Shown piece by piece: positions 16,035 to 34,242 of a stretch of 34,839 nt of DNA. The notes below the pieces were generated by a model. That model did not search any database. It worked only from the letters and a program-made list of their open reading frames with translations, and was not told the DNA's origin. Origin of the DNA: Ramlibacter sp. Lineage in GTDB: Bacteria > Pseudomonadota > Gammaproteobacteria > Burkholderiales > Burkholderiaceae_C. The DNA is taken from positions 1 to 34,839 of the forward strand of contig JAQGNJ010000234.1 in assembly GCA_028291885.1 (NCBI GenBank). The letters are read 5' to 3'. Numbering within the stretch: the first letter of the stretch is position 1; each line of letters opens with the position of its first letter. The translations under genes were made by a program, and so were the position numbers.

Positions 16035-16946
16035 TCAGCGAGCTGCCGGCCCGAGCAGCACAGGCGCGGCATGGTCGGCGATCGCATCGGTCGTCGCGAA
16101 CCAGATGTCGTCGCGGCGGGTCAGCGCTTGCAGCAGCTGCGCAAGATGGCTGATCCGGTACGGCTGCCCCATCAGCCAGGGATGGAGGTTCAGCACCAGC
16201 AGCCGGCCGCCGGCGCGGCCGTCGATCGCGAGCCGGTCGGCAGCCTCCAGCACGCTGCGCACCCAGCGGTCCATCGAGATCTTGCGGTGCCAATGGGCCA
16301 TGACGTCGTCCAGGTCCGCCGACATGGGCAGGGACAGGATTGGTCCGGCCGGCGTGGCCATCGGAACGACGCGCTCGTCGTGCGGCCAGTCCAGCATGTA
16401 CGCGAGCCCTTCCCGCGCGAGCAGGCGCGGTGTCCGGGATGACTGCGCGTACTCCGGCCCGTGCCAGCCCTTCACTTGTTTCCGGGCCCGCAGCGGCTCC
16501 AGCGAAGCGCGCAGATAGTCGCGCTCCTCCTGCTCGGACAGATGTTCGCCGATGACCTCGGTCACGCTCAGGCCATGGCCGACCAGGTCCCAACCCAGGT
16601 CCAGCGCCCTCTCGACGATGATGCCGCGGTTCGCGGCGACGAACCGGTCGGCGGCCAGCGAAGCCTTGAGGCAATGCCTGGACAGCAACTCCATCAAGCG
16701 GAACACGCCCACCCGGTTGCCGTACTCGCGCATCGAGAAAGCCCGGTAGTCGGGATAAGGGCCGCGCCCGAATCCGCCGGGCACGTTGGCGGGTGTGAAG
16801 GCGTTGTCCGCGGGATAGAGCTCGTAGGACTCGGCGCTGACGACGAACGCCAACGCAAGCGGCTTGGCTCCGGGCCACTCCATCCGCGGTAGCGAGTGGG
16901 CCGAATCCCTGGCGTAGAAGCTGTGCTCGGTAGCAAGGGTGGACAT
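16035..16946 (-). CDS. PuuE-like polysaccharide-deacetylase-fold hydrolase
   Basis: This 303-residue protein belongs to the NodB/polysaccharide deacetylase superfamily, in the branch containing PuuE allantoinase and cyclic imide hydrolases, which open cyclic amides. Supporting segments are LALAFVVSAESYEL, DYRAFSMREYGNRVGVFRLM, GWDLVGHGLS, MLDWPHDE and LVLNLHPWLMGQPYR. The Asp-Asp and His-x3-His metal motifs of sugar deacetylases are not conserved, which speaks against a chitooligosaccharide deacetylase. It follows the related gene at 16955 with an 8-bp gap and is surely co-transcribed with it. The reaction is inferred from the family. Confidence 0.85.
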   Translation of the reverse strand: MSTLATEHSFYARDSAHSLPRMEWPGAKPLALAFVVSAESYELYPADNAFTPANVPGGFGRGPYPDYRAFSMREYGNRVGVFRLMELLSRHCLKASLAADRFVAANRGIIVERALDLGWDLVGHGLSVTEVIGEHLSEQEERDYLRASLEPLRARKQVKGWHGPEYAQSSRTPRLLAREGLAYMLDWPHDERVVPMATPAGPILSLPMSADLDDVMAHWHRKISMDRWVRSVLEAADRLAIDGRAGGRLLVLNLHPWLMGQPYRISHLAQLLQALTRRDDIWFATTDAIADHAAPVLLGPAAR

Positions 16947-16954
16947 GTCGCTCC

Positions 16955-17902
16955 TCAGCCGTTCAGGTGGTCGACCATCTGCTTGTAATGGTTCTTCATG
17001 TAGTACTCGGCGATCTCGTCACCCGTGGCGTGCCAGACACCTTCGTGCGAGCGCAGGTAGTCGAAGATTTCATGCAGGTAGGCGATGCGGTGCGCCTGGC
17101 CGAAGAGCGCCGGGTGCAGGGAGACGCACATCACTTTGCCGCTCGCGGCGCCCTCGCGATGAAGCACGTCGAAGTGGCGCTTGACCAGGTCGACGAATCC
17201 GTCGGCCTCGAACGCCGCGCCGAGGTAGGGAGCGTCGTTCACATCCATTGCATAAGGCATCGAAATGAGCCTGCCGCTCTTCACCTCGAGGGGGAAGGGC
17301 TCATCGTCGTGGAACCAGTCGCTGTGGTACGTGAAGCCCAGCGCGGCCAGGATGTCGGGCGTGTTTTCGCTCGAGGCTTGCGGACCGGGCCCGCCGGTCC
17401 CCTGCATCCGGACGCCGGTTTCCTGGTACACCATGTCGACCATCCGCCGGTAGTACGCGGTCTCGTCCTGCGTCGACATGCCATGGACGAAGCGGGTGTT
17501 GTTGATGCCGTGCCCGAGGTAGGCCCAGTTGCGCTCCACCATCGCGTCGCGGATGCTGGGATTCTTGGCTAGCGCCTGCGCGTTGAGGACGGCCGTGCAG
17601 CGGATGTCGAACTTGTCGATCGCTTCGAGCATGCGCCAGAAGCCGACGCGGTTGGCGAAGTCCTGGCGGCCGTACATCATCACGTCGGGCGCCGGCATCC
17701 TGGCCCAGGCGTCGATCCAGGGATCGGCGGGCGGCATGTACTCGTAGTGCAGGACGTTGGGGCAGACCCACAGCGCGACCCGCGCCCCGCCCGGCCAGCG
17801 CAGCGGCGGCCGCTCCGTGACGGCGCAGTACCGGACCCACTCCTGCCGGGCCCTCGACCGGGCGGTAGCGGGTGGCGCTGGGCGGTACGAATACTGAAGC
17901 AT
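16955..17902 (-). CDS. PuuE-like polysaccharide-deacetylase-fold hydrolase (paralogue of the next gene)
   Basis: This 315-residue relative of the downstream gene reads VALWVCPNVLHYEYMPP, YGRQDFANRVGFWRMLEAID, NWAYLGHGINNTRF, YHSDWFHDDEPFPLE and VSLHPALFGQAHR. The shared D-W-x-H-D-(D/E) and LHP-x3-GQ-x-x-R blocks mark the same subfamily. The ATG at 17902 has AGGAG about six bases upstream; the frame is open to 17983, but the extra codons lie in the promoter region. The gene diverges from the Rieske gene at 18056 across a 153-bp region carrying the recurring GCAA motif. The two hydrolases may form a heteromer or act on successive rings; this is inference. Confidence 0.86.
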   Translation of the reverse strand: MLQYSYRPAPPATARSRARQEWVRYCAVTERPPLRWPGGARVALWVCPNVLHYEYMPPADPWIDAWARMPAPDVMMYGRQDFANRVGFWRMLEAIDKFDIRCTAVLNAQALAKNPSIRDAMVERNWAYLGHGINNTRFVHGMSTQDETAYYRRMVDMVYQETGVRMQGTGGPGPQASSENTPDILAALGFTYHSDWFHDDEPFPLEVKSGRLISMPYAMDVNDAPYLGAAFEADGFVDLVKRHFDVLHREGAASGKVMCVSLHPALFGQAHRIAYLHEIFDYLRSHEGVWHATGDEIAEYYMKNHYKQMVDHLNG

Positions 17903-17925
17903 CCTGCTCTCCTTGTCGCTGCCCG

Positions 17926-17990
17926 ATGATTGTAATCCGCAAGCAACCAGAAGCCCGCCGCTTGCAAATATCGCGAAACACAAATAAACT
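17926..17990. promoter_or_regulatory. Divergent operator/promoter region with recurring GCAA motif
   Basis: The shared element ATGATTGTAATCCGCAAGCA starts at 17926. GCAAGC (17939-17944) and GCTTGC (17960-17965) form an inverted repeat, and GCAAATAT begins at 17964. A plausible plus-strand promoter is TTGCAA (17962-17967), 17 bp, TAAACT (17985-17990). Its -35 box overlaps the right arm, as expected for a repressor site controlling the oxygenase gene at 18056 and possibly the hydrolase gene at 17902. Confidence 0.55.
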
Positions 17991-18055
17991 CACCGGAACG
18001 GCTGACGCCTCGCCGCGGCATCCCGCCGGCCTTCCACGTTGCCCAAGGAGACCAA

Positions 18056-19360
18056 ATGCTCACCAGCGAAGACAACAGGCGCCTCACCCAGGTCGGGCCG
18101 GGGACGCCTCTGGGCAAGTTCTTTCGCCGCTACTGGATCCCTGCCGCCGTGCTCGAGGAGATCGGGGAGCCGGGTGGCGCGCCGGTGCGGGTCGGACTGC
18201 TGGGTGAGCGGCTGGTGGCCTTTCGCGACCCGGAGGGCAAGCCCGGCCTGATGAAGGAGCACTGCCCGCACCGTGGCGCTTCGCTGGCCTACGGCCGCAA
18301 CGAGGTGGGCGGCCTGCGCTGCCTGTACCACGGCTGGAAGATGGGACAGGCCGGCAAGATCCTCGAGATGCCCGCCGAGCCGCCGGACACCAGGATGAAG
18401 GCTGTCCTCACCCACCCCGCCTATCCGGTGCAGGAGGCCGGCGGCATCCTGTGGACGTACATGGGCCCGGCCGACAAGATGCCGCCCTTTCCCAGGTTCC
18501 CCTGGATGGACCTGCCGGCCGACCAACTGCTGGTGGTCAAGATGCACCAGGATTCCAACTATCTGCAGGGCCTGGAAGGCGATCTCGATCCCGCGCACCC
18601 GAACTACCTGCACAGGGACTTCGACGAGGCCGTCGCGCGCCAGAGCTGGACCGGCGCCGGCTGGCAGTCGATCAGCGACCTGATGTCGGACGGCGCGCCG
18701 GTGATCCAGGTCGAGGAGACGCCGCAGCTGATGCGCGTCGGCGCGATCCGCAAGACCGCCGATGCGGGCATGTCGTACGTTCGCACCACCGAATGGGTGG
18801 CGCCGTTCTACACCCACATCGCGACGGGCCCGCACGAGTCGCAGCTGTTCAAGGCCTGGTTGCCGATCGACGACAACTCCTGCTTCACTTTCTACATCCA
18901 CCACGATGCGCGCAAGAAGCTCGACGTGCCGGCGATCTACGGCAACTGGGGCCACAGGTCCGAGCCGCCGCACTACAGGACGGCGCACACGGCGCAGAAC
19001 ATGCACCTGCAGGACCGCAAGATGATGGTGGACGGCAACTTCTCCGGCGTGATCGGCGCCGCCATCCAGGATCGGGCCGTGCAGGAAAGCATGGGGCCGG
19101 TCTTCGATCGCACGCAGGAGCACCTGGGCACGAGCGACAAGGCCGTGATCTTCTTTCGCCGCCTGATCCTGCGCAAGCTGCAGGAAATGGAGGAAGGCAA
19201 GGAGCTGCCGGGCACCGCACCGGGGCTGGACTTCAGGCAGCGCGCCGCGTCCGTCTACATGCCGGCCGGCGCTCCGTGGCAGGAAGCAGTGCGCTGGATC
19301 GAAGCCCAGGAGGCGGGCCTGAAGGACCCGCTGCCCAAGCAGGAGGCGACTTCGGTCTGA
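18056..19360 (+). CDS. Rieske [2Fe-2S] ring-hydroxylating oxygenase, phthalate 4,5-dioxygenase-like
   Basis: This terminal oxygenase has 434 residues. The Rieske ligands are Cys70, His72 (CPHRGASLAYG), Cys89 and His92 (CLYHGW). The iron site lies in LEGDLDPAHPNYLH (Asp-x-x-His-x4-His). The opening MLTSEDNRRLTQVGPGTPLG and the length match phthalate 4,5-dioxygenase/LigX-type single-subunit oxygenases. The start is supported by AAGGAG five bases upstream of the ATG. It is followed after 7 bp by a ferredoxin and then a reductase, so this unit may be a full three-component oxygenase. That differs from classic phthalate dioxygenase, which uses one fused reductase. Confidence 0.94.
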   Translation: MLTSEDNRRLTQVGPGTPLGKFFRRYWIPAAVLEEIGEPGGAPVRVGLLGERLVAFRDPEGKPGLMKEHCPHRGASLAYGRNEVGGLRCLYHGWKMGQAGKILEMPAEPPDTRMKAVLTHPAYPVQEAGGILWTYMGPADKMPPFPRFPWMDLPADQLLVVKMHQDSNYLQGLEGDLDPAHPNYLHRDFDEAVARQSWTGAGWQSISDLMSDGAPVIQVEETPQLMRVGAIRKTADAGMSYVRTTEWVAPFYTHIATGPHESQLFKAWLPIDDNSCFTFYIHHDARKKLDVPAIYGNWGHRSEPPHYRTAHTAQNMHLQDRKMMVDGNFSGVIGAAIQDRAVQESMGPVFDRTQEHLGTSDKAVIFFRRLILRKLQEMEEGKELPGTAPGLDFRQRAASVYMPAGAPWQEAVRWIEAQEAGLKDPLPKQEATSV

Positions 19361-19367
19361 GCGCCTG

Positions 19368-19691
19368 ATGGTCTGGATCACCTACATCGCGGCCGACGGC
19401 GCGCGATCCCGGGTCGACGTGCCCGGGGGCAGCAACCTGATGATGGGCGCCATCCAGAACAACGTGCGCGGCATCGACGGCGAATGCGGCGGCTGCCTGT
19501 CTTGCGCGACCTGCCACGTGTACCTCGATCCCGCATGGCAGGAGCGTGTCGCGCCGGCGGACGCTATGGAAACCGAGATGCTGGAGGCGGTCGTCGCCGA
19601 GCGGCGGCCGACCAGCCGCCTCGGCTGCCAGGTGAGGATCACGCCCGACCTGGACGGCATGCCCGTCCATCTTCCCGAAACCCAGTCGTGA
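19368..19691 (+). CDS. [2Fe-2S] ferredoxin, adrenodoxin/putidaredoxin type
   Basis: A small soluble electron carrier of 107 residues. The cluster ligands are visible as Cys-x5-Cys-x2-Cys in GECGGCLSCATCHVY, with the fourth Cys in SRLGCQV. This plant/vertebrate-type cluster transfers single electrons from a FAD reductase to an oxygenase. The gene lies between the Rieske oxygenase and the reductase, and its stop overlaps the reductase GTG start by four bases (GTGA). It probably supplies the oxygenase at 18056, and perhaps the other two oxygenases of the cluster, which have no ferredoxin of their own. Confidence 0.95.
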   Translation: MVWITYIAADGARSRVDVPGGSNLMMGAIQNNVRGIDGECGGCLSCATCHVYLDPAWQERVAPADAMETEMLEAVVAERRPTSRLGCQVRITPDLDGMPVHLPETQS

Positions 19692-20914
19692 GCGCGGCGG
19701 GGATCGTGATCGTCGGCGGCTCCTACGCCGGCCTGAACGCCGCGGCCGCCGCGCGGGCCGCGGGTTTCACCGGCCCGATCACGCTGGTCGGCGACGAGCC
19801 GCATCTGCCCTACCAGCGGCCGCCGCTGTCCAAGGATTTCCTGAAAGGACGCGTCGAGTCTTCGCAGTTGCCGCTGCGGGCGCCGAAGTTTTTCGACGAC
19901 AGCGCGATCGAGCTGCGCCGCGGACACGAGGTCGTGGCAATCGACCGGCACAAGCAGGAGGTCGTCCTCGCGGCCGGCGACAGCTTGCCCTACGCCAAGC
20001 TCGTCCTGGCGACCGGATGCCGGCCCCGAAAGCTGTCGGTGCCGGGCTCGGACGCCGCCGGCATCCACTGCCTGCGCACGCTTGACGACGCGCAGGCGAT
20101 CGCGCGCGAATGCGCTGCGGCAAGCCGTGTCGCCATCGTCGGCGGCGGCTTCATCGGGCTGGAGATTGCCGCGGCGCTGCGCACCATGGGCAAGGAGGTG
20201 GTCGTCGTCGAAGCCCAATCTCGCCTGCTGGCGCGGGCCCTGCCGCCGGAGCTGGCCGCGTACATCGCCCGGCGGCACGAACGCGAGGGCGTGCGGCTGG
20301 TCTTCGACGCGCAGGTCGCCTCGTTCCCGACGCGCGGCGGCCGCGTGGACGCCGTGCTTCTCGCCGACGGCACGGAGATCGCGGCCGACCTCGTGATCGT
20401 CGGCATCGGCGTCGTTCCCAACCAGGAGCTGGCGCAGGCGGCCGGCCTGCGCTGCGACAACGGCATCGTCGTCGACGAGCGCGCCGCGACCCAAGACCAG
20501 AACATCTACGCCGCCGGTGACTGCACCTCGCACCCGAATCCCTTCGCGCCGGGCATGACCAGGCTGGAATGCGTGCAGAACGCGATCGACCAGGGCCGGG
20601 TGGCTGGAACGAACGCCGCCGGCGCAAGCGCGACATACGCGGTCGCGCCCTGGTTCTGGTCCGACCAGTACGACCTCAAGCTGCAGGGCGTGGGCATCTC
20701 CACCGGCTACGACCGCATCGTGCGCCGCGGCGACATGGAGCAGGGCGCTTTCTCGTTCTTCTACTTCCGCGGCGAACGACTGCTCGCGGTGGAGTCGATC
20801 AACAAGCCCGGCGACCACATGCTTGGCCGCAAACTGCTGGCGGCAGGCGCGAAGCTGTCGCAGCGCGAAGTCGAAGACACCGGCTACGACCTGAAGCAGG
20901 CGCTCGCGCAATAG
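19688..20914 (+). CDS. FAD-dependent ferredoxin reductase (BphA4/putidaredoxin-reductase-like)
   Basis: This 408-residue flavoprotein moves electrons from NADH to the neighbouring ferredoxin. It has the FAD motif IVIVGGSYAGLNAAAAARAA, the conserved PYQRPPLSKDFL, the NADH motif VAIVGGGFIGLEIAAAL, ATQDQNIYAAGDC and a C-terminal reductase domain with WFWSDQYDLKLQGVG. The GTG at 19688 is chosen because it overlaps the ferredoxin stop and begins just before the FAD fold. The open frame further upstream is shadow of the ferredoxin gene. The 3' end is six bases from the convergent amidase gene, with no obvious terminator. Confidence 0.95.
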   Translation: MSAAGIVIVGGSYAGLNAAAAARAAGFTGPITLVGDEPHLPYQRPPLSKDFLKGRVESSQLPLRAPKFFDDSAIELRRGHEVVAIDRHKQEVVLAAGDSLPYAKLVLATGCRPRKLSVPGSDAAGIHCLRTLDDAQAIARECAAASRVAIVGGGFIGLEIAAALRTMGKEVVVVEAQSRLLARALPPELAAYIARRHEREGVRLVFDAQVASFPTRGGRVDAVLLADGTEIAADLVIVGIGVVPNQELAQAAGLRCDNGIVVDERAATQDQNIYAAGDCTSHPNPFAPGMTRLECVQNAIDQGRVAGTNAAGASATYAVAPWFWSDQYDLKLQGVGISTGYDRIVRRGDMEQGAFSFFYFRGERLLAVESINKPGDHMLGRKLLAAGAKLSQREVEDTGYDLKQALAQ

Positions 20915-20920
20915 CGCCAC

Positions 20921-22363
20921 TCATCCCAGCGACGCGTGCATCCGTTGGCCGGCGACTTGTTCGACGGCCGCCGCGATCCGCAGCAGCCGCGCGTCCGCGC
21001 CCGGCTCCGCGTACAGCGTGATGCCGAAAGGAGCGCCGCTCTTGTCGCGGCCGGCCGGCAGGGCGACGACCGGCGCGCCCGCCTTGCCCGTGCACTTGGC
21101 CGCGGCCGTCATCGGCGACAGCAGCACGTCCGCGTTGCCGACGCGAAGTGCGCCGACGATCCCGCCCGCGACGCTGAGCGCGATGTCGCGGCGGCGATCG
21201 AGCACGTATTGGTCGGCGTGGATGCCGGCCGTCGCGTTCGCCGCTTCCAGCAGGCTCTGTCCGTACGGGATCGCCTCCGGATGCCTGGCGTTCCAGGCAA
21301 TGATGTCGGCCATGCTTCGCATGCCGCAAGGCTGGTAGGTCTCCAGCAACGCATCCAGGCCGGCCTTGAATTCCGTGCGGAACACGCAGGAGCGGACCTC
21401 GCTCAGCTGCTCGGCGCTTGGCAGATCGCAGGGATCGACGATGACGGCGCCGGCCCGCGACAGCGCGGTCAGGACCTGCTCGAACGCCTGCTCGCGACTC
21501 GCGTTCATCACCGCGTCGGCGACGAAACGGCGCGGAACGCCGATGCGAACGCCTTGCAGCGAGCCCGCTGCCTCGCCACCGCCCACGTCCGGGAAGTACG
21601 CCAGGGTCGCGGTGTCGCGCATGTCCGCGCCGGCCATGGCCTGAAGCACCAGCCAAGCGTCGTCTACGCAAATCGTCAAGGCGCCGGCCGTGTCCTGGCT
21701 GGGCACCAGCGGCACGACGCCATGGCGGCTGACGCGGCCCACCGTGGGCTTGAAGCCGACGATCGAGGAGAAAGTGGCCGGGGTCTGGATGGAGTTCTGC
21801 GTCTCCGAGCCGATCGCGAACGCGCAAAAGCGCGCAGCCACCGCCGCCGCCGACCCCACGCTGGAGCCCTGGCCGCGGTCGTAGCACGAGCCCAGCGGGT
21901 TGCGCACCACACCGCCCGCGCCGCTGAACTCCGAGGGCATGACTTCGGAGACAAAGTCGGCGAACTCCGTCAGGTTGGTCTTGCCAAGCAGGACGGCGCC
22001 CGCGGCGTCGAGGCGCGTCACGAGTGTGGCCGCGTGCGGCGGAACGAAGTCCACGAGCGCCCGCGCGCCGGCGCAGGCCGTGCAGCCGTCGGCGGTGAAA
22101 ACGTTGTCTTTCACGAGGTACGGCACGCCCTGCAACGGTCCGCGGATCCTGCCGGCGGCGACCTCGCGATCGGCTTGCTCCGCCTGCGCGAGCGCGAGCG
22201 GGGACACCGCCCGAACGGCATTGATGCCCATCTCGCCGCCGTTGAAGCGCGCGATGCGTGCCAGGTACCAGCGGGTCGCCTCGACCGAGGTGATTTCACG
22301 CCTGGCGATGGCGGCGCCGATCGCCCGCGCCGATCCGGTGAGAAGCAGGCCTGACATGTCCAT
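20921..22363 (-). CDS. Amidase signature family hydrolase with unusual oxyanion-loop residues
   Basis: This 480-residue amide hydrolase uses a Ser-cisSer-Lys triad. The Lys lies in PYLVKDN, the cis-Ser in GQGSSVGSAAAVAA and the nucleophile Ser in GSETQNSIQTPATFSSIVGF. In typical members the last block reads GT(D/E)-x-GGSI; here the glycines before the Ser are Gln-Asn, which may alter the oxyanion hole. The start is the ATG at 22363 (MDMSG); the ATG at 22357 is possible and neither has a clear ribosome binding site. It is last in the minus-strand operon with the dioxygenase subunits and SDR. It probably hydrolyses an aromatic or dicarboxylic half-amide. Confidence 0.9.
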   Translation of the reverse strand: MDMSGLLLTGSARAIGAAIARREITSVEATRWYLARIARFNGGEMGINAVRAVSPLALAQAEQADREVAAGRIRGPLQGVPYLVKDNVFTADGCTACAGARALVDFVPPHAATLVTRLDAAGAVLLGKTNLTEFADFVSEVMPSEFSGAGGVVRNPLGSCYDRGQGSSVGSAAAVAARFCAFAIGSETQNSIQTPATFSSIVGFKPTVGRVSRHGVVPLVPSQDTAGALTICVDDAWLVLQAMAGADMRDTATLAYFPDVGGGEAAGSLQGVRIGVPRRFVADAVMNASREQAFEQVLTALSRAGAVIVDPCDLPSAEQLSEVRSCVFRTEFKAGLDALLETYQPCGMRSMADIIAWNARHPEAIPYGQSLLEAANATAGIHADQYVLDRRRDIALSVAGGIVGALRVGNADVLLSPMTAAAKCTGKAGAPVVALPAGRDKSGAPFGITLYAEPGADARLLRIAAAVEQVAGQRMHASLG

Positions 22364-22386
22364 GTTGTTGCTCGTGTGGTTGATGG

Positions 22387-23205
22387 CTATTTCGTCCCGG
22401 GCGGAACACTTGCGGCCTTGCGCAGCGCCGTCGGAAGGACCTTCTCGCGACCCTGCGGGCCCATGGCGCTGTGGCCGCCGTCGACGACCATGCAGCTGCC
22501 GGTCGTGAAGCTCGCATGCGAGGAGCAGAGAAAAAGCACCGTGTCGGCCACCTCGTCCAGGGTGCCGAGCCGGCCCAGCATGTGCAGCTTGTCGCCCCAC
22601 TTCGCGTATTCCTGCTTCACTTCGGCAGGGGCGGTGTCGTGCATGGGCTTGCGGATCCAGCCGGGAAGCACCGAGTTGACCCGGATGCCTTCGTTGGCGA
22701 GGTCCAGCGCCTGGCTCTTGGTCAGCTGCTCGATCGCCGCCTTGCTGGAGGGATAAACCCAGCGGCCCGCCAGGCCCGCGTGCGCCGCCTCGGTCGTGAA
22801 GTTGACGACGCTCGCGTTCTCCGAGCGGGCCAGGTGAGGGCGCGCCAGCTGCAGCAGCACGACGTGGCCGAAGACGTTGACGTTGTACGCGTCCAGCCAC
22901 TCTTCGCGCGTCGCCGCCTCGCCCCGGTCGGCATAGGTGCACGCCGAATTGATCAGGAAGTCGATGCCGCCGAACTCGCGCACCGTCGCCGCAACGAGCT
23001 GCTCGACGTCCTCGTTGGAGCGCAGGTCGGCATGGACATAGCGGCAGTTCTCGCCCAGCTCCGAGGCCAGGCGTTCGCCGGGCTCGTCGACGATGTCCGC
23101 CAGCACCACCTTCACGCCGGCGCGGACGAACTTGCGCGCCACGCCGACGCCGATGCCGCTGGATCCGCCGGTGACGATCGCAACCTTTCCAGCCACGCCT
23201 TCCAT
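22387..23205 (-). CDS. Short-chain dehydrogenase/reductase (SDR), paralogue of the 15224 gene
   Basis: This 272-residue dehydrogenase has the motif AIVTGGSSGIGVGVARKF, an Asp in LADIVDEPG favouring NAD+, NSAC in place of NNAG, and the Tyr-x3-Lys in WVYPSSK. The position of the catalytic Ser, 13 residues before the Tyr, is a Thr (VVNFTTEAAHAG). Its paralogue keeps Ser there. Both share the C-terminal G-x-x-x-G-P-x-x-RE segment. The ATG at 23205 has AGGAG at a five-base spacing; the GTG at 23211 would be too close to the ribosome binding site. It follows the beta subunit by nine bases and may be the cis-dihydrodiol dehydrogenase for the dioxygenase. Confidence 0.9.
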   Translation of the reverse strand: MEGVAGKVAIVTGGSSGIGVGVARKFVRAGVKVVLADIVDEPGERLASELGENCRYVHADLRSNEDVEQLVAATVREFGGIDFLINSACTYADRGEAATREEWLDAYNVNVFGHVVLLQLARPHLARSENASVVNFTTEAAHAGLAGRWVYPSSKAAIEQLTKSQALDLANEGIRVNSVLPGWIRKPMHDTAPAEVKQEYAKWGDKLHMLGRLGTLDEVADTVLFLCSSHASFTTGSCMVVDGGHSAMGPQGREKVLPTALRKAASVPPGTK

Positions 23206-23214
23206 GCTCACTCC

Positions 23215-23709
23215 TCAGACGATGATCGAGAGCCGGCCCTGGGGACGAAGCGATCCGATGTCGAGCACCGTGCGCTTCTCCTTGATCCTCAGCGCGCCCT
23301 CTTCTTCGACGAAGAGGTATTGATGCTGGCCGAAGTAGGTGTCGGTGACCTGCTGGCTGGTCCGGTAGGTCGTGAAGTTGCTGGTCGCACGCAGATGCAA
23401 CTCCGCGCGCTCGGTGATCCTCACGTTGGTGATCATCCGGCGGGAACGCGAGCGCGGATGCTCGGCGTGCGCCGTCTTCTTGCCCAGCCGCTTGACGCGC
23501 TCGGTCAGGTGGTGGCCGTCGTCGACGATCAGGTGCAGCACGCCCGCCGTCGGCGTGTCGCCGGGAAGCGCGAGGTTGGGAACCACATAGGCGCAGTCTT
23601 CGGTGAACAGCCGGCGCCACTCGACGAGCTGCCAGCTGTCCAGGAGCTCGGCCTCGAGGTACAGGAAGTCCTCGATCTCGCTGCGCGAAACGGTTTGCAG
23701 GACGGCCAC
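23215..23709 (-). CDS. Aromatic-ring-hydroxylating dioxygenase beta subunit
   Basis: The small structural subunit (164 residues, SnoaL-like cone fold) of an alpha3beta3 Rieske dioxygenase. Typical segments are SRSEIEDFLYLEAELLDSWQ, WRRLFTEDCAYVVP, DDGHHLTERVKRL and TSNFTTYRTSQQVTDTYFG. It has no metal centre. The GTG at 23709 overlaps the alpha stop codon (TAGTG) and has GGAGGA about nine bases upstream, so the two subunits are translationally coupled. Length and order (alpha then beta) fit the naphthalene/biphenyl/benzoate dioxygenase group. Confidence 0.93.
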   Translation of the reverse strand: MAVLQTVSRSEIEDFLYLEAELLDSWQLVEWRRLFTEDCAYVVPNLALPGDTPTAGVLHLIVDDGHHLTERVKRLGKKTAHAEHPRSRSRRMITNVRITERAELHLRATSNFTTYRTSQQVTDTYFGQHQYLFVEEEGALRIKEKRTVLDIGSLRPQGRLSIIV

Positions 23710-25001
23710 TATTTCTTTCCTCCAGCGGACAGGCATTCTCTCCACGCAAGCCAGAACGCCCGCTGCGTGATCTCGTCGGTCGGGTGGCTGGCGGGCGCGC
23801 CGAATCCCTTGGAGAGGTCGTTCCAGGGCGCCTCGCGCCAGGATGCAAAGGCCCGCTGGCAGGACTCGAGGGCCTCGATGTCGTCCGGCGTGGCGAAGCC
23901 TCCCGGACCGAGGAATTCGAAGAAGTTCGTCAGGCGCCGCTCCAGGGCGGGCTTGCCGAACTCCTCCTTCGGCGCCATCGACCAGACGCTGACCTCCATG
24001 AAGTCCTCCGACACCGGCTGGAACGTCCGCACCGTCACCGACATGATGTCGTTGATCACGAGGTTGGGGAAGATCAGGAGGTTGCGGCTCTTGGTCGCCA
24101 TCCGGTGCGCGCGTTCCTCGCCGAACTTCGCCACCAGCCGGGCATAGATCTGGTCGATCTCGACCTTGGCCTGCTCGCCCCAGAGCGAGATCCATTGCGC
24201 GACCGGCCGGCCGTACGTCGCCTCGCGTTCGACCACGCCGTGGCCGTTGCCCAGGGAGATCCCGCCGCCATTGAGCTTGCCGCGGACCATGGTCCCGCCG
24301 GAGTTCGTGCGGATCAGGTCCAGGTAGGTCGGGTGCAGCGTCTCGACGTGCAGCACGTCGGTGCTGTTTTCCGCAAGCATTTTCCAGTTGGCGCGGGCGC
24401 TGTATTCCTGGAGGCCGTCGACGACGCACATCTCCTCTTCGGCCTGGTCGACCACCAGGTCGATGTATTCGCGGGCGCCGGCAAGATAGTCGTGCAGGCT
24501 CACCGCGTCGCGATCGTAGTTGAGGAACCAGAAGCCGCGGTATTGCTCGAACCGGGGCACCGCGACCAGGTCGTTGCGCGAATCCGCATGGAAGGACTCC
24601 GGATAGGTGTCCGCTTCGGAGACGAGCTTGCACTTGCCGGTGTTCTCGAACGTCCAGCCGTGGTAGATGCAGCTGAAATGTTTTGCGCGGCCGCTGCGAT
24701 GCCGGGTGATCTGCGCGCCGCGGTGCGGACACACGTTGAGGAAGCACCTGACCTGCCCGTCCTTGTCGCGCAGGAAGACCACGGACCTGCCGCCGACGCG
24801 ACGCATCTCGAAAGCGTCGTTGCCCTTGAGCTCGGAGTCGTGGCCGACGTAGAGCCAGCATTTCGAGAAGATCGCATCCATCTCGGCGCGGAAGATCTCC
24901 GGGTCGACATAGTTGGACCTGGCGACCTGGAACAGCCTGGCCTGGGGATCGATCTTCAACGAGGTTTCGATCTTCGCCTCGGTCTTCGCAATCATGTTCA
25001 T
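23709..25001 (-). CDS. Aromatic-ring-hydroxylating dioxygenase alpha subunit (Rieske)
   Basis: This catalytic subunit has 430 residues. The Rieske ligands are Cys91, His93 (CPHRGAQI), Cys111 and His114 (CIYHGW). The iron triad with its bridging Asp is in ENSTDVLHVETLHPTY. The N-terminal FQVARSNYVDPEIFRAEMDA and FSKCWLYVGHDSEL are typical of two-subunit dioxygenases, unlike the two phthalate-type oxygenases elsewhere in the cluster. The first ATG, at 25001, has a G-rich ribosome binding site (GGGGTGGA). No ferredoxin or reductase is adjacent; the pair at 19368-20914 is the obvious candidate. It diverges from the MarR gene and lies next to the recurring operator motif. Confidence 0.94.
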   Translation of the reverse strand: MNMIAKTEAKIETSLKIDPQARLFQVARSNYVDPEIFRAEMDAIFSKCWLYVGHDSELKGNDAFEMRRVGGRSVVFLRDKDGQVRCFLNVCPHRGAQITRHRSGRAKHFSCIYHGWTFENTGKCKLVSEADTYPESFHADSRNDLVAVPRFEQYRGFWFLNYDRDAVSLHDYLAGAREYIDLVVDQAEEEMCVVDGLQEYSARANWKMLAENSTDVLHVETLHPTYLDLIRTNSGGTMVRGKLNGGGISLGNGHGVVEREATYGRPVAQWISLWGEQAKVEIDQIYARLVAKFGEERAHRMATKSRNLLIFPNLVINDIMSVTVRTFQPVSEDFMEVSVWSMAPKEEFGKPALERRLTNFFEFLGPGGFATPDDIEALESCQRAFASWREAPWNDLSKGFGAPASHPTDEITQRAFWLAWRECLSAGGKK

Positions 25002-25010
25002 TCCACCCCG

Positions 25011-25171
25011 ATGATTGGGTTGCGCAAATACCCGGGCATCGCAAATTCCCGGGCCGGTCGCGGCTGGAGCGGCCGCCGCCTCGCAGCCGTTCCTGGCCCG
25101 CGTGTCGGTCCGCTCCCGCTCATTCCAGACTCCACCCGGTTGCGGCGCTCATATTTGCATTATGCAAGTAT
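25011..25171. promoter_or_regulatory. Divergent operator region of the dioxygenase operon and the MarR gene
   Basis: The shared element ATGATTGGGTTGCGCAAATA starts at 25011, ten bases from the dioxygenase start codon. GCAAATACCCGGG (from 25023) and GCAAATTCCCGGG (from 25041) form a direct repeat 18 bp apart. At 25151-25171 a 21-bp near-palindrome has ATATTTGCAT on the left and ATGCAAGTAT on the right around a T. The size and symmetry suit a MarR dimer, and the MarR gene begins 79 bp downstream, so autoregulation is likely. Confidence 0.6.
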
Positions 25172-25249
25172 CGGCGGCAACTGCCAACACCGGAGTTGTT
25201 GATAGACTGCTGGTTCGCCTTGCGCACGACCACCTTGACGGAGACCCCC

Positions 25250-25801
25250 TTGAACCCTCAGTTCAGCCTGGAGAAGCGGCTTGCCTACCGCTTCTCGATC
25301 CTGTCGACCCTCAATGTCCGCTGCATTGCCGGCCTGTACACGAAGAAGTTCGGTCTCTCGTCGGCGGGATGGCGCATCCTGTCGATCATCGGCCGCTACG
25401 AACCGATCTTTCCCGGGGTGGCGGCGCAATTGAGCACCATGGACGCGGACAAGGTGACGCGCGCGGTCGACCGGCTGGTCGAGATGGGATACGTGATCCG
25501 CAACACGGATGCGGCGGACCGGCGACGCGTGATCCTTTGCCTGACCTCCCGCGGCCACGCCGTCTACGCCGAGGTCGAGGAGGTGAGCCAGGAGCTGGAT
25601 GCCGAATGGCGCAGCGTCCTGACGGCGGAAGAGAACAAGATGCTCAACGGCATCATGGACAAGCTGGACGCCCAGGCCCGCGAGCTGTTCACCGGCGAAC
25701 TGGCGGAGACACGATTCGCCCCCGTGCGCGCAACCAAGCGGCCCGCCGCCGCCAAGAAGACCGCCAAGGCCGCCGCTGCGCGCAAGACGACGGCTCGCTA
25801 G
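25250..25801 (+). CDS. MarR family transcriptional regulator
   Basis: This winged-helix regulator has about 183 residues: [37 protein letters not shown], then the recognition region [20 protein letters not shown], the wing [13 protein letters not shown] and a C-terminal dimer helix. It ends in a Lys/Ala-rich tail ([19 protein letters not shown]) resembling histone H1-like DNA-binding tails. I prefer the TTG at 25250, with GGAG six bases upstream and a family-like N-terminus right after; the frame is open to a TTG at 25196. It diverges from the dioxygenase operon. MarR proteins of catabolic loci usually repress until an aromatic ligand binds. Its stop overlaps that of the convergent Bug gene. 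Confidence 0.88.
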
Positions 25802-26763
25802 TCGAGCGTCAGGCCGATCTTCTGGACCAGCGCCTTGTAGCGAGGCGCTTCTCGGTCCAGCAGCGCACCGAATTCCTGCGGCGTCCCCGGCGACGCAGTG
25901 AGGCCCTGTGATTCCAGCGCCGCTTTCACCTCGGGACTCTCGAGGGCCGAGCGCAAGGCGGTATGCAGCTGGCTGACCGTCTGCGGCGGCATGCCGGCCG
26001 GCCCGACCACGCCGAAGAAGAACACGGTGTCGACGCCGTTGAGGCCCTGTTCGCTGAAGGTCGGCGTGTCGGGCAGCTTGGCCAGCCGCGTGGGGCCCGT
26101 CACGGCGATCGGCTTGACCTTGCCGGGGTGGAGCAGTGGGCCCGGTGCGCTGTCGAAGAGCAGCTGGATCTCGCCGCCGAGCAAAGCCGTCCATGCCGGC
26201 GCGCCGCCTTTGTAGGGCACGTGCAGGGCGTCCACACCCGAGGCCTGCTTGAATCCCTCCATCGCCAGGTGGTGCGCACTGCCGGGCCCGGCCGAGCCGT
26301 AGTTCAGCGTGCCGGGATTCTTCTTCGCGTAATCCAGCAGCTCCTTGAGGTTGTTCACCGGCAGGTTCCGCTGGGCCGTCAGGATGAAGGGGCCGCGCGT
26401 GACTTCGATGATCGGCTGGAACGACTTCACGCCATAGGTGATGTTCTTGTACAGCGCCGGCGAAACCACCATGGCGCTGGAGGTGGCGAACATCAGCGTG
26501 TAGCCGTCCGGCTGCGACCGGGCGACATGGGTCGCGCCGATGGTTCCACCCGCACCGGCCTTGTTGTCGACGACGACCGACTGGCCCAGGGTTTTCGCCA
26601 TGCCCTGCGCCACCCGGCGGGCCACCACATCGACCGAGCCGCCCGGCGGGAACGGAACGACGAGCGTGATCGGCCGGTCGGGGAAGGCGCCCTGGCTCAA
26701 CGCCACGGCGGGGATCGCGAGCGAGGCCGCCATGCACAGGCGGCGGAAGGCATTCGATGGCAT
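25798..26763 (-). CDS. Bug family (tripartite tricarboxylate) periplasmic substrate-binding protein
   Basis: This 321-residue periplasmic binding protein has a Sec signal peptide ([20 protein letters not shown]). Bug hallmarks are [53 protein letters not shown] and [19 protein letters not shown]. The ATG at 26763 has GGAGCG about five bases upstream; the frame extends to 26961 only through the promoter region. As with the gene at 13247, no TctAB permease is nearby. It is convergent with MarR (the stop codons overlap at 25798-25801) and has GCAA-type motifs upstream. Confidence 0.93.
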
Positions 26764-26819
26764 GGGACGCTCCGTGGATATCGCAGGAGATGCACATCGT
26801 AAGCCAACTATTTGGGATA

Positions 26820-26996
26820 CGCAACTTTCGCAAATGGCGCAAATACGCTTGCGCCGCGGCTTGCACTGGCCTCGTGCAGGGTCCGCACACCCCCGGTGCG
26901 CGGAGGGGCGTTCGAGGTGCATGAAAGACCGGGTAGCGTCGTGATTCGCGTCTGGCCGCAACCTGCGCCCGCATGATTGCGTTGCGCAAACTACCC
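26820..26996. promoter_or_regulatory. GCAA-motif cluster upstream of the second Bug gene
   Basis: GCAAC, GCAAATGG and GCAAATAC begin at 26821, 26830 and 26839, about nine bases apart. GCGCAA at 26837-26842 and TTGCGC at 26849-26854 form an inverted repeat. The long element recurs as ATGATTGCGTTGCGCAAACT from 26973, 210 bp upstream of the Bug start. A weak minus-strand promoter, TTGCGT then 17 bp then TACGAT, would have its -35 next to the motifs. The 273-bp gap between the Bug and hemerythrin genes holds nothing else I can support. Confidence 0.5.
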
Positions 26997-27036
26997 GCTC
27001 CGGCTCGCGGCCGGTCAGGGCCGCACCGGCCCGGAG

Positions 27037-27477
27037 CTAAGCGGCTTGCTGCGGCTTGCGGGTGATGACCACCGGCGCGCCGCCGAAGCGCGACTTGGTA
27101 CGGAAGATCGCCACGCCGGCATCCATCGCCTGGACGTGCTCCGGGAGCCAGCGATACAGCTCCGCGCAGAGCGGCCGGATCAGGGCCGCGACGTCCAGGG
27201 AGGGGCCTGCGCCGGCGACGATGTCCCGGACTTCGGCGAGGGACTTCAGGACCGCCTGGTGCTCGTCGAGATGGCAGCTCGCGTTGCCGTCCTTCATTTG
27301 TCTGAGCTCTTCGTCCTCGACGGCGAAATGCCTCGCCGCGTGATCGCGCAGCGCTTCGAGCGCCGCGACCAGTTCGTGCGGCTGCGCGGCACTCAGAGAA
27401 TCGATCAGCCGAAGAAGCTCGGCGTGGTCGGCGTCCAGGGTCGGATCGCCAAGCAAGTATTGGGAAGACTCTTGCAT
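27037..27477 (-). CDS. Bacteriohemerythrin (hemerythrin-domain oxygen-binding protein)
   Basis: A 146-residue four-helix di-iron protein that binds O2. The ligand set is complete: His18 (DADH), His46 and/or His50 with Glu54 (HAARHFAVEDE), His69 and His73 (HLDEH), and His114 with Asp119 (HVQAMD). No signal peptide or signalling domain is present, so it is probably a cytoplasmic oxygen store or sensor. The ATG at 27477 is chosen; the frame continues far upstream only as antisense noise over the transporter genes. It diverges from the transporter operon across 156 bp containing operator motifs. An O2-carrier beside several O2-consuming oxygenases may be functional, but this is inference. Confidence 0.9.
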   Translation of the reverse strand: MQESSQYLLGDPTLDADHAELLRLIDSLSAAQPHELVAALEALRDHAARHFAVEDEELRQMKDGNASCHLDEHQAVLKSLAEVRDIVAGAGPSLDVAALIRPLCAELYRWLPEHVQAMDAGVAIFRTKSRFGGAPVVITRKPQQAA

Positions 27478-27547
27478 ACGGTTTGTCTCGTTCCAGTCAA
27501 TGCGCCGGCGGACCCGCCATCGCCGCGCCACGATAGCAGAGAACAAG

Positions 27548-27599
27548 ATAATCGTGATCCGCAAGTATTGACGTTTGCAAGTATTGTGAATATTCTTGC
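27548..27599 (+). promoter_or_regulatory. Promoter with overlapping operator for the ABC importer operon
   Basis: The promoter is TTGACG (27568-27573), exactly 17 bp, TATTCT (27591-27596). The long element occurs as ATAATCGTGATCCGCAAGTA from 27548. GCAAGTATTG occurs twice (27561 and 27577). An inverted repeat, GCAAG-x-AT with AT-x-CTTGC, spans 27577-27599 and covers the spacer and the -10 box. A repressor bound here would block RNA polymerase. The ATG of the first gene is at 27634. Confidence 0.65.
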
Positions 27600-27633: not shown

Positions 27634-29163
27634 ATGAAGCGTCGTTCTTTCGTCCAGTCTCTCGCAGCTTCCCCGGCGGCCCTGTCCGCGATCTTGTGGT
27701 CGGCCCAGGCGCGCGCCGCGATCGGTCCGACGCTGACGATCGCGTACAACGTGGCGCCCCCCGGCTTCGATCCCAACAGCGGTTCGTATGCGGTCAATCC
27801 CGGACTGCAGTCGATCTTCAAGACGCTCTACGACCCCTATTTCGAGCAGGACGAGGACCTGTCCCTGCGCCCCGGCCTGCTGGACCAGTTCAGCTGGAGC
27901 CAGGACCGCAACCGCATTTCCATGCGTCTGCGCCGCGACGCGAAGTGGCACGACGGCAAGCCGGTCACGCCCGACGACGTGCTCTGGAACCTGCGCCGGC
28001 TCGGCGACGCCAGTGCGGGCAATCCCCTGGCCTCGGTCTTTGCAAGCAACAAGAACTTCACTGTCCGCGACAACATCATCAGCTTCGATGTCCAGCCCTG
28101 GCGCGCCAACATGCTCGAGCGCCTGAGCTTCCTGGCCTGTTACCTCATCCCGCCGCATTACTACCAGCAGGTCGGCAAGGAGGGCTTCGAGAAGAAGCCC
28201 ATGGGCTCGGGGCCCTACATGTTCGACCAGTTCGAGCGCGGTTCCTTCCTGCGCCTGAAGGCCAATCCCCACTACTGGGGCGGCAAGCCGGCCTTCGAGA
28301 CGGTGGTGTTCAAGTTCATCACCGATGCGTCCAGCCGTGTCGCCGAGATCGAGCGCGGATCCTCCGACCTCACCGTCGACGTCCCCTACGAGGAATACGA
28401 GCGGCTGCGCGCCAAACCCGGCCTGGTCGGGGTCGCCGGCCCGGTGACGGACATCGCGATGCTGTTCCTCAACAGCGTCGGGGTGATGCAGGACGCCAAC
28501 GTCCGCAAGGCCGCCGTCCATGCGATCGACAAGAAGCTGATCGTCAGCAGGTTGCACCGCGGCCTGGCCAACCCGATCGACACGCTTCTCGTGCCGCAAT
28601 ACCGCGGCTACGACGCAGCGGTCAAGACGCCGTACGACCCGGCACTGGCGGAGTCGCTGCTCAGGCAGTCGGGCTACTCGCGCGAGAAGCCGGTCGAATT
28701 CACCATCCAGACGACGCGCGGCTACAAGCCCAAGGACTATGAAACCGTCCAGGCGGTCGTCGAGATGTGGCGGCGCGTCGGCATCAAGGCCAACATCGAG
28801 GTCTACGAGATCGCCAGGCACTTCGAGTTGCGCACCCAGCACAAGCTGGCGCCGGCCGCGTTCTACAACTGGGGCAACTCCACCGGCGATCCGGAAAGCT
28901 CGCTCGGCACCGCGATGACCACGGCCTCGCCGCATTCGTCCTGGAAGTCGGCCGACCTCGACGCGCGCATCCGGCCGCTGTTCGAGGAACGCGACGAGGC
29001 AAAGCGGATGGAAGGCTACAAGGCAGCGAACGCCTACATCGCCCAGAACGCCTACGTGATCCCGCTGTTCCAGTTCTACCAGCCGATCGTCCACAAGAAG
29101 GGCCTGCGGTTCAAGCCGCACATGGCGGGCCACGTCCTGCCCTTCAAGATCGGCCGGGCCTGA
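27634..29163 (+). CDS. ABC transporter substrate-binding protein, peptide/nickel family (SBP_bac_5)
   Basis: This 509-residue periplasmic binding protein starts a five-gene operon. The N-terminus MKRRSFVQSLAASPAALSAI carries a twin-arginine-like signal peptide ending near ARA. Family blocks are LRPGLLDQFSWSQDRNRISM, DAKWHDGKPVTPDDVLWNLR, GSGPYMFDQFERGSFLRLKA, NPHYWGGKPAF and VRKAAVHAIDKKLIV. The ATG has GAAGGGA just upstream. The family binds oligopeptides, but members in catabolic clusters also bind other polar compounds, so the ligand may be the cluster's substrate. Confidence 0.94.
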   Translation: MKRRSFVQSLAASPAALSAILWSAQARAAIGPTLTIAYNVAPPGFDPNSGSYAVNPGLQSIFKTLYDPYFEQDEDLSLRPGLLDQFSWSQDRNRISMRLRRDAKWHDGKPVTPDDVLWNLRRLGDASAGNPLASVFASNKNFTVRDNIISFDVQPWRANMLERLSFLACYLIPPHYYQQVGKEGFEKKPMGSGPYMFDQFERGSFLRLKANPHYWGGKPAFETVVFKFITDASSRVAEIERGSSDLTVDVPYEEYERLRAKPGLVGVAGPVTDIAMLFLNSVGVMQDANVRKAAVHAIDKKLIVSRLHRGLANPIDTLLVPQYRGYDAAVKTPYDPALAESLLRQSGYSREKPVEFTIQTTRGYKPKDYETVQAVVEMWRRVGIKANIEVYEIARHFELRTQHKLAPAAFYNWGNSTGDPESSLGTAMTTASPHSSWKSADLDARIRPLFEERDEAKRMEGYKAANAYIAQNAYVIPLFQFYQPIVHKKGLRFKPHMAGHVLPFKIGRA

Positions 29164-29172
29164 ACCGGACCG

Positions 29173-30180
29173 ATGACCGCCGGCTATCTCGCGCGTCGCC
29201 TGCTGCTGGCGATCCCCACGCTGTTCGGCGTGGCCCTTGCGGTGTTCGTCCTGTTGCGGGTCGTCCCCGGGGATCCGATCGCCATGATGGTGGTCGGAGA
29301 ATCCACGCCGGAGGATATCCAGGCGCTGCGGGTGGCGTACGGCCTGGACAAGTCCCTGCCCGAACAGTTCGCGATCTACCTGCGTGACCTGGCGACCGGC
29401 AACCTGGGCACCTCGATCAGCCTGAAGCAGGATGTACTCACGCTGGTGCTCGGCAGGTTGCCGGCGACGCTGGAACTGGCGCTCGTGTCCATCGTGCTCT
29501 CCGTCGTGCTGGGACTGGCCCTGGCGCTTGCCGCCGTGCACTGGCGGGGAACCGTCGTCGAAACCGCCGTGGATGCTGTCAACTCGCTGGCCCTGGCGAT
29601 CCCGGAGTTCCTGTGGGCGCTGCTCCTGATCCTGGCCTTCGGCGTGCTCTGGCCGGTCCTGCCGCTGTCCGGCCGGATCGACCCCTCGCGCGGCACCGAG
29701 TTCTCCACGCAGTTCTACCTGTTCGAGAGCCTCGCGAGGCTGCGCTGGGCCGATGCGCTGGAGATCCTGCAATATCTCGTGCTGCCCGCGATCGCCCTGG
29801 CCTTGCCGCTGGTCGCAGTGATCGCGCGGGTGCTGAAAAGCTCGCTGCTCGAGGCGCTGGTGCAGGACTACATCCTGCTTGCGCGGGTCAAGGGCTTCAG
29901 CCGCGGCCGGACGCTGGTGCGCCATGCGCTGCCCAACGCGCTGCTGCCGACGATCACGCTCACCGGAGTGCATTTCGTGTTCCTCGTCGGCGGCACCGTG
30001 CTGGTGGAACTGATCTTCGCTTACCCCGGCATCGGCAACCTGCTCTATGGCGCGGCCATCAACCGGGACCTGCCCCTGATCCAGGGCGTGACGATCGTCT
30101 TTTCCGTGCTCTTCGTCCTGATGAACCTGTTCATCGACTTCCTGCATTCCCTCCTGAACGTCCGGGCGGGCGACGCGTGA
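29173..30180 (+). CDS. ABC transporter permease, DppB/OppB type
   Basis: The first inner-membrane permease of the importer, 335 residues with six transmembrane helices. It opens MTAGYLARRLLLAIPTLFGV and has LRVVPGDPIAMMV, typical of DppB. The conserved cytoplasmic loop that contacts the ATPase is DYILLARVKGFSRGRTLVRH. It lies 9 bp after the binding protein. Its stop overlaps the GTG start of the second permease by four bases (GTGA). Confidence 0.95.
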   Translation: MTAGYLARRLLLAIPTLFGVALAVFVLLRVVPGDPIAMMVVGESTPEDIQALRVAYGLDKSLPEQFAIYLRDLATGNLGTSISLKQDVLTLVLGRLPATLELALVSIVLSVVLGLALALAAVHWRGTVVETAVDAVNSLALAIPEFLWALLLILAFGVLWPVLPLSGRIDPSRGTEFSTQFYLFESLARLRWADALEILQYLVLPAIALALPLVAVIARVLKSSLLEALVQDYILLARVKGFSRGRTLVRHALPNALLPTITLTGVHFVFLVGGTVLVELIFAYPGIGNLLYGAAINRDLPLIQGVTIVFSVLFVLMNLFIDFLHSLLNVRAGDA

Positions 30181-33758: not shown

Positions 33759-34154
33759 TTATTCGGCAGTAGGGGCATCCGCTGCATCAGAAATTTCCGG
33801 ACGGTCGACCAGTTCGACCAGCGCCATCGGCGCGTTGTCGCCGACGCGGTAACCCATCTTCAGGATGCGGGTGTAGCCGCCCGGACGCGCGTTGTAGCGC
33901 GGGCCGAGTTCGTTGAACAGCTTCGTGACGATGTCGCGGTCGCGCAGGCGGTCGAAGGCCAGGCGGCGATTGGCCACCGTCGGCACCTTGGCCAGCGTGA
34001 TCATGGGTTCGACGACGCGGCGCAGTTCCTTGGCCTTGGGAACCGTGGTCTTGATGACTTCGTGCTCGAGCAGCGAATTCATCATGTTGCGCAGCATGGC
34101 GAGGCGGTGCTCGCTCGTGCGGTTGAGTTTACGAAGGCCGTGGCCGTGACGCAT
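33759..34154 (-). CDS. rplQ: 50S ribosomal protein L17
   Basis: A ribosomal large-subunit protein of 131 residues. It opens [20 protein letters not shown], the invariant L17 start. [20 protein letters not shown] and [20 protein letters not shown] follow. The C-terminal extension after ELVDRPE is acidic and variable, as in other beta-proteobacteria. It is the last gene of the alpha operon and follows rpoA by 88 bp, which is longer than in E. coli and contains a stem-loop. Confidence 0.98.
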
Positions 34155-34204
34155 GGTGTTTCCTTACTTTATTAATTCCGCAGCCGGATCAGGTACTGCG
34201 GGTT

Positions 34205-34226
34205 CAAGGCTGCGACCGCAGCCTTG
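34205..34226. other. Perfect stem-loop between rpoA and rplQ
   Basis: CAAGGCTGCG and CGCAGCCTTG form a 10-bp perfect stem around a two-base centre (AC). On the transcribed minus strand no T-run follows, so it is not a terminator for rpoA. It may protect or process the mRNA, or set the rpoA/rplQ ratio. Confidence 0.5.
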
Positions 34227-34242
34227 TTTTCACCGACTTCAA

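Follow-up and report, generated by a model that had tools for sequence, protein, structure and literature searches.

A palindromic element repeated through a Ramlibacter catabolic gene cluster is most likely the operator of a MarR-family regulator

The window analysed here, a 34,839-nucleotide stretch of Ramlibacter sp. (assembly GCA_028291885.1, contig JAQGNJ010000234.1), carries a catabolic gene cluster in whose intergenic gaps a short element recurs. We found this element to be an imperfect palindrome of the approximate form ATATTTGC-N5-GCAAATAT, with a core TTG-N7-CAA and A/T-rich arms. It would serve as operator for a single dimeric regulator, most probably the MarR-family product of the gene at 25250 to 25801, which would repress the transcription units of the cluster until a ligand releases it, a reading to which we assign a probability of about 0.72. 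From what could be computed, namely the sites, their rarity, their conservation together with the MarR gene across two genera and their overlap with three promoter-like sequences, we infer MarR binding, repression and a ligand.

The preliminary description of this DNA had presented the element as a directional 20-mer occurring in four gaps. Scanned across the window with up to three mismatches, this consensus gives six matches where 0.13 are expected, a count reached by none of 100 shuffled sequences. The four reported copies are indeed present, without mismatch at 17926, 25011 and 27548 and with a single one at 26973, which makes the inserted base proposed for that third site unnecessary. The remaining matches are found at 25151 (three mismatches) and, outside the cluster, at 1677 on the minus strand (two mismatches). 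The shorter core GCAA(A/G)TA(C/T) likewise occurs at every position listed for it (17964, 25024, given as 25023, 25164, 26839, 27561 and 27577), all in gaps as had been claimed. Three further copies, at 25151 (minus strand, in a gap), 27453 (inside the hemerythrin gene) and 14480 (minus strand, inside a LysR gene), bring the overall tally to seven of nine in gaps, two being intragenic. While the element itself is real, its directional form turned out to be an asymmetric version of the imperfect palindrome, and we dropped the 20-mer in favor of the palindrome, which recovers more sites and accounts for the half-sites. The geometry TTG-N7-CAA is common to the listed 20-mers (TCG in one) and is found in its exact form at 12 places in the window, six of them in the named gaps (17930, 25015, 25155, 26812, 26977 and 27568). 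Most of the earlier site list therefore stands, except that cores 26812 and 17971 (TCG-N7-CAA) had been missed, while 25155 and 27568 had been caught as half-sites only.

A scoring matrix was built from seven window sites and their reverse complements; since these sites were picked after inspection, independent tests weigh more. With a third-order Markov model of own-genome DNA as background, hits scoring at least 18 are expected 0.01 times per window and 1.3 times per 4.32 Mb, and no hit in 10 Mb of simulated DNA exceeded 20.4. In leave-one-out scoring, the seven training sites obtain 26.6, 22.7, 21.5, 21.3, 18.7, 18.7 and 12.1, the weakest being core 27568, which ranks 12th in the window when left out. 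The best copy found in the genome, O1 (25150 to 25172, catatTTGCATTATGCAAgtatc, score 31.1), is located between the dioxygenase and MarR genes. Nine of its ten arm pairs are complementary, compared to four to six in the other six training sites, and its core at 25155 is the top of a genome-wide covariance-model search. O2 (25010 to 25032, gatgaTTGGGTTGCGCAAatacc, score 25.0, leave-one-out 21.5) is centered 20 bp before the start codon of the dioxygenase alpha gene and is followed by a weak match at core 25032 (score 13.3), while O3 (17925 to 17947, gatgaTTGTAATCCGCAAgcaac, score 24.9, leave-one-out 21.3) is centered 34 bp upstream of the start codon of the deacetylase-like gene DeacA. Two sites precede the gene for a Bug (TctC) protein: O5 (26807 to 26829, actatTTGGGATACGCAActttc, score 23.4, leave-one-out 18.7), centered 55 bp upstream of its start codon, and O6 (26972 to 26994, catgaTTGCGTTGCGCAAactac, score 22.8, leave-one-out 18.7), centered 220 bp upstream, between the Bug gene and the 3' end of the hemerythrin gene. 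The other two locations are tandem pairs with a 16-bp offset. O4 (17950 to 17988) lies over the predicted Rieske oxygenase promoter and comprises cores 17955 (weak, score 10.5) and 17971 (18.2), both outside the training set; O7 (27547 to 27585) lies over the predicted importer promoter and comprises cores 27552 and 27568 (scores 26.4 and 20.6, leave-one-out 22.7 and 12.1). A candidate extra site at 15164 to 15186 (actcgTTGCGATCCGCAAttaac, core 15169, score 19.4, outside the training set) is centered 34 bp upstream of an SDR gene, yet within the 3' end of a LysR gene. This TTGCGATCCGCAA sequence, overlapping the LysR gene end just before the SDR gene, may extend the regulon.

The element is rare in the 4.32-Mb genome. 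A degenerate pattern has four perfect matches, all within the window; with at most one mismatch it returns 15 rows, seven of which (six distinct places) are on this 34.8-kb contig, and with at most two mismatches 110 matches, compared to 64 for the reversed control. A symmetric pattern in which TCG is allowed for TTG yields 15 rows at 12 places, compared to three for the reversed control, and only three places match on both strands: two in the window and C82:19595 on another contig. A sequence-only covariance model, for which 150 of 672 first-look candidates were scored, gave nine rows at E ≤10 that reduce to five distinct places, of which four are in the window and the fifth is C30:16576. The preliminary description had named many equally good matches elsewhere as evidence that would speak against a regulon; few were found by these pattern and covariance-model searches.

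Conservation in a second genus points to the MarR protein. The only close MarR relative among the matches listed in a genome-collection scan, which confirmed at least two loci, is that of Pusillimonas noertemannii DSM 10065, which is 68% identical over residues 1 to 148, and we compared the window with the 20 kb around this orthologue (locus L013). As for its neighbors, the two deacetylases (72 and 71% identical), the Rieske oxygenase (83%), the small gene (68%) and the reductase (63%) that follow it, the amidase (66%) and each of the five importer genes (70 to 78%) have orthologues in L013; for the dioxygenase pair and its SDR, the Bug gene and the hemerythrin, the 20-kb stretch contains none. 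The window-trained matrix has its three best L013 hits in three syntenic gaps, before the importer (15800, score 21.6), before the MarR gene (9909, 21.1) and between deacetylase and oxygenase (5316, 18.0), the next hit scoring 12.8. These gaps make up 3.1% of the DNA, and only 1 of 500 column-permuted matrices places its top three hits in all of them. Moreover, when blocks that we set around the two promoters are aligned, the O4/Rieske block is identical to its L013 counterpart (cores 5300/5316) at 26 of 50 positions, a level attained by 4 of 1,000 shuffled gaps, and the O7/importer block (cores 15800/15784) at 29 of 56, attained by none of 1,000. The comparison of the same gaps in a related genome, which the preliminary description had suggested as a check, finds the element conserved in three Pusillimonas gaps alongside the MarR gene. 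Both genera have nearly the same MarR recognition helix, ADK(V/L)TRAVDRLV, and the LysR-type regulator encoded in the window has no orthologue in Pusillimonas, which makes MarR the best candidate. The covariance model, less sensitive than the matrix, finds no Pusillimonas site at E ≤10 (150 of 784 candidates scored), so that the evidence there rests on the 20 kb of L013 and on patterns. One pattern used on the Pusillimonas genome was drafted after the L013 sites had been seen and shows rarity only; the symmetric pattern matches both strands at seven places in that genome, three of them in L013.

The position of the sites relative to promoters suits repression relieved by a ligand, since at three predicted promoters sites overlap the −35, spacer or −10 and some are paired. 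Promoters were predicted as simple consensus matches. The predicted dioxygenase operon promoter (25159 to 25187, minus strand, TTGGCA-N17-CATAAT, 10/12) has its −10 at the center of O1, which spans it; the scan gave two promoter-like sites in 2.6 kb, compared to a shuffle mean of 0.3. The predicted Rieske oxygenase promoter (17962 to 17990, plus strand, TTGCAA-N17-TAAACT, 8/12) has core 17971 in its spacer, and the left half of core 27568 constitutes the −35 of the predicted importer promoter (27568 to 27596, plus strand, TTGACG-N17-TATTCT, 9/12). Two of these three overlaps have L013 counterparts in the same register: TTGCAA-N17-TAAAAT (9/12) for the Rieske oxygenase, where one equally good alternative exists, and TTGATT-N17-TATTCT (8/12) for the importer, where a 9/12 alternative is found further upstream. 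The consensus scan found no promoter for the deacetylase pair (DeacA) or the Bug gene. Taking transcription to start 7 nt after each predicted −10, the sites are centered near −9 (O1), −20 and −36 (O4), and −29 and −45 (O7). A second match at a 16-bp offset is seen in 27552/27568, 17955/17971, L013 5300/5316 and 15784/15800, and 1100/1116 of a locus on contig C82. Among offsets from 12 to 45, this one is prominent (z 3.8), although a second core scoring at least 6 accompanies just 3 of the 12 primary sites.

In the model that we favor, a MarR dimer would sit on the palindrome when inducer is absent and, at the dioxygenase, Rieske oxygenase and importer promoters, would cover the −35, spacer or −10 and thereby block RNA polymerase. 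The sites upstream of the deacetylase pair, of the Bug gene and of marR itself would act in the same way, with no overlapping promoter found there, and at some promoters a second dimer would bind 16 bp away. The substrate or a pathway intermediate, probably an aromatic or N-heterocyclic acid, would release MarR, and the units would be induced together. The regulon that the preliminary description had ascribed to the MarR protein at 25250 is supported, by site rarity, by three conserved gaps of a Pusillimonas cluster in which MarR is kept and LysR is not, and by palindromes of the same architecture near two more distant plasmid MarR genes, one of them statistically weak. Its outline was incomplete, because the motif is a palindrome, because two sites were missed and two half-seen, and because the reach probably includes at least contig C30.

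Indeed, the regulon probably extends to at least one other contig. C30:16576, which was absent from training, is centered about 85 bp upstream of the presumed start of a second Bug/TctC gene, 46.6% identical to the Bug of the window; none of 59 other genomes of the genus has a match to this C30 gene at E ≤1e-90. Around this strong site (L002, C30:14500-18600, core 2082; L032) lie genes whose translations suggest an IclR regulator and a dioxygenase alpha/beta pair, along with another Bug gene, the third, 55% identical to the second. On C82, the symmetric match at 19595 lies about 120 bp before a gene reading as an amidase, followed by genes reading as importer and deacetylase (again from translations); cores 1100 and 1116 (L003, C82:18500-20700; L033) form the 16-bp-offset pair before this amidase-like gene. 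A wider proposal, tentative and in our view somewhat unlikely as a whole, is that an accessory, perhaps mobile MarR commands six or more transcription units spread over three contigs, among them the C30 Bug/dioxygenase and C82 amidase/importer/deacetylase clusters, and that the 16-bp operator pairs put two dimers on opposite promoter faces.

Known MarR systems offer several points of comparison. The recognition-helix motif TRxxDRLVxxG is common to the window MarR and to E. coli MarR, which differs in controlling antibiotic-stress genes. The half-sites of E. coli marO are TACTTGCC..GGCAATAT-like and resemble those described here, with one base less between them. Among solved chains, 7kfo, which we take to be MarR_73/IadR, is a distant match to the window MarR (E 1.1e-6). 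MarR-family operators, expected in the gap next to the regulator's own gene, are described as palindromes of 16 to 20 bp (PMC10458429), and O1 is a palindrome in the gap next to marR that is kept in Pusillimonas. MarR_73/IadR of Variovorax CL14 is similarly a MarR protein at an aromatic-acid locus, a repressor released by its ligand, whose site lies between its gene and the first gene of the pathway (PMC9613470). It differs in that the locus concerns indole-3-acetate, and the likeness is one of layout. BhbR2 of Pigmentiphaga kullae H8 is a MarR-family dimer at an aromatic catabolic operon, with an imperfect palindrome that has N5 between its arms and a footprint that covers the −35 (PMC12016517). 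That palindrome is TTGATT-N5-AATCAA, compared to TTGC-N5-GCAA here, the comparison covering operator and regulation; BhbR2 differs in having been studied at one promoter, which it was shown to activate, and in not being released by its ligand (PMC12016517). On plasmids pBPS33-1 (Hydrogenophaga) and pAKD15 (IncP), MarR genes 34 to 36% identical to that of the window lie amid oxygenase and Bug genes, and in both 12.4-kb stretches the matrix scores highest at a GC-N5-GC palindrome that precedes an oxygenase gene by 23 to 24 bp. Besides the distance of their MarR proteins, these loci differ in the outer half-site (TAGC or GCTA, versus TTGC/GCAA here) and in their other pathway genes. The MarR/Rieske/Bug set of pBPS33-1 (L054, 164386 to 176805) has IS1071 transposase genes on both sides, which suggests that it is a mobile catabolic unit.

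Several observations weigh against a MarR repressor as the owner of the element. The searches found a single orthologous cluster. A third was sought with MarR as query (299 genomes of the family, 399 of the order, 150 related to that of Pusillimonas, and plasmids), with DeacA (399 family genomes, plasmids), with the Rieske oxygenase (369 class genomes, plasmids), and on plasmids with the dioxygenase alpha and the importer binding protein. With the best few candidates per genome scored, the family, order and class samples (299, 399 and 369 genomes) hold none besides the genome itself, and other best identities among the matches listed are at most 36% for MarR, 46% for DeacA, 42% for the Rieske oxygenase and 55% for the binding protein. 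The pBPS33-1 palindrome is in a gap shared with the MarR gene and is weak, equalled by 10 of 500 permuted matrices, while that of pAKD15 is strong (1 of 500) and about 2.4 kb from the MarR gene. Eight of 13 plasmid loci were examined; five are without a hit of at least 12, and one hit is inside the MarR gene. Out of 19 distant upstream regions, only that of L038 has a matrix hit of at least 15. Its MarR (35% identical) has two TTTC-N5-GAAA palindromes. On the side of MarR ownership, the start of the L049 MarR gene (33%) is directly preceded by three TTG-N7-CAA sites, of which two are offset by 16 bp. We considered a shared spacing in distant MarR relatives and set it aside as too weak for proof: in 20 upstream regions, the most frequent spacing between TTG and CAA is N7, which occurs five times in three regions (L013 included), while N6 and N17 each occur four times in four regions. 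Within L013 itself, the block in the MarR gap taken as a whole is not conserved above shuffles (18 of 35 positions; 177 of 1,000), though its palindrome is kept. Finally, no promoter for marR overlaps O1; the scan found only a weak CTGCCA-N16-TAGACT just downstream of it. We found no account of this Pusillimonas cluster or operator in open-access literature, a restriction that makes the absence weak.

The same side of the balance holds the resemblance of the element to LysR-type boxes. Such boxes are T-N11-A inverted repeats, with one before the regulator's own gene and centered near −65 of the target, and TTG-N7-CAA contains T-N11-A. The sites might hence belong to a LysR-type regulator such as that encoded at 14246 to 15196, the box pairs being recognition and activation sites; core 15169 falls at the end of that very gene, before the SDR gene, and O3 is centered near −61 of the predicted Rieske promoter. 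Moreover, two other Pusillimonas palindromes of the same shape (L013 core 19063 and G686:C3:425413) are just upstream of LysR genes, so that shape alone does not identify the protein. Against LysR ownership, which we consider improbable, the sites are kept in Pusillimonas all the same, where 15 matches to the LysR protein reach at most 34% identity, compared to 68% for MarR. In addition, none of the 20 best window hits is just upstream of the LysR gene (14246), and the five cores at the three predicted promoters are centered between about −9 and −45, away from −65.

Ownership by the window MarR need not entail repression, and the protein could activate or act dually. Overlap with a promoter is no proof of repression, as the analogy with BhbR2 indicates: this protein occupies −22 to −43 of its promoter whether or not ligand is present, and acts as an activator (PMC12016517). 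The placement of O1 over a predicted −10, and of the O4 and O7 pairs over spacer and −35, suits repression; it is not decisive, the promoters being consensus matches, and we regard an activating or dual MarR as unlikely. Ownership by another MarR paralogue of the genome is very unlikely. One on contig C291 (31 to 32% identical) is of the same subfamily and adjoins a Bug gene, but nothing in the region upstream of it scores above 2.6 with the matrix, whereas the best site of the genome stands before the MarR gene of the window, whose orthologue accompanies the Pusillimonas cluster. The C291 contig also has a matrix hit of 18.9 (L034, core 3527) outside the upstream region of the paralogue, equalled by 2 of 500 permuted matrices. 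As for chance matches in the AT-richer gaps of a GC-rich genome, or mere shared promoter elements, TTG is indeed common to promoter −35 boxes and the core, and the gaps have a higher A and T content. However, permuted-column matrices keep composition and yet fail on the three L013 gaps, as seen above, and the best score is equalled by none of 500 permuted matrices on L013, C30 and C82 (the latter two picked by pattern). With so few matches genome-wide, the probability of this explanation is close to nil.

The gene content of the cluster is as follows. The MarR-family regulator (25250 to 25801, plus strand, TTG start) matches PF12802 MarR_2 (E 4.1e-9) and PF01047 MarR (E 1e-6), both above the gathering score. 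To its left, the ring-hydroxylating dioxygenase alpha gene (23709 to 25001, minus strand) is the first of a leftward operon that continues on the same strand with beta (23215 to 23709), an SDR (22387 to 23211) and an amidase (20921 to 22351). The Rieske oxygenase (18056 to 19360, plus strand) is of the LigXa/phthalate 4,5-dioxygenase type and is followed by a small gene (19368 to 19691), a probable ferredoxin, and a reductase (19691 to 20914). On the minus strand, two genes at 16035 to 17902, DeacA (16955 to 17902) and DeacB (16035 to 16946), encode PuuE-allantoinase-like deacetylases or cyclic-amide hydrolases. They score 126.7 and 68.3 bits against TIGR03212, both under its curated cut-off of 424.6, and have no Pfam match, while DeacA matches solved PuuE at E 1.6e-25. 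The Bug/TctC solute-binding protein gene (25798 to 26763, minus strand) is followed, beyond the hemerythrin gene, by a dipeptide-type ABC importer (27634 to 32750, plus strand), whose binding protein (27634) and permease (29173) were identified by Pfam, and whose second permease (30183) and ATPases (31025 and 31908) were read from translations and matched to L013. The island adjoins genes whose translations read as core ribosomal rplQ and rpoA (33759 to 34839). The core conserved in Pusillimonas, that is, PuuE-like hydrolases, amidase, phthalate-4,5-dioxygenase-like Rieske oxygenase with its reductase, and peptide-type importer, suggests that the pathway degrades an aromatic or N-heterocyclic compound containing a cyclic amide or imide bond.

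The mechanism class is well known, and what is new is limited to a further member whose operators are laid out in duplicate and which probably extends to other contigs. Assigned to one switch, this uncharacterised catabolic island would yield an operator usable for searches elsewhere. Two oxygenase systems and two uptake routes would be joined with hydrolases of the cyclic-amide type in one inducible pathway, which would narrow the search for its substrate.

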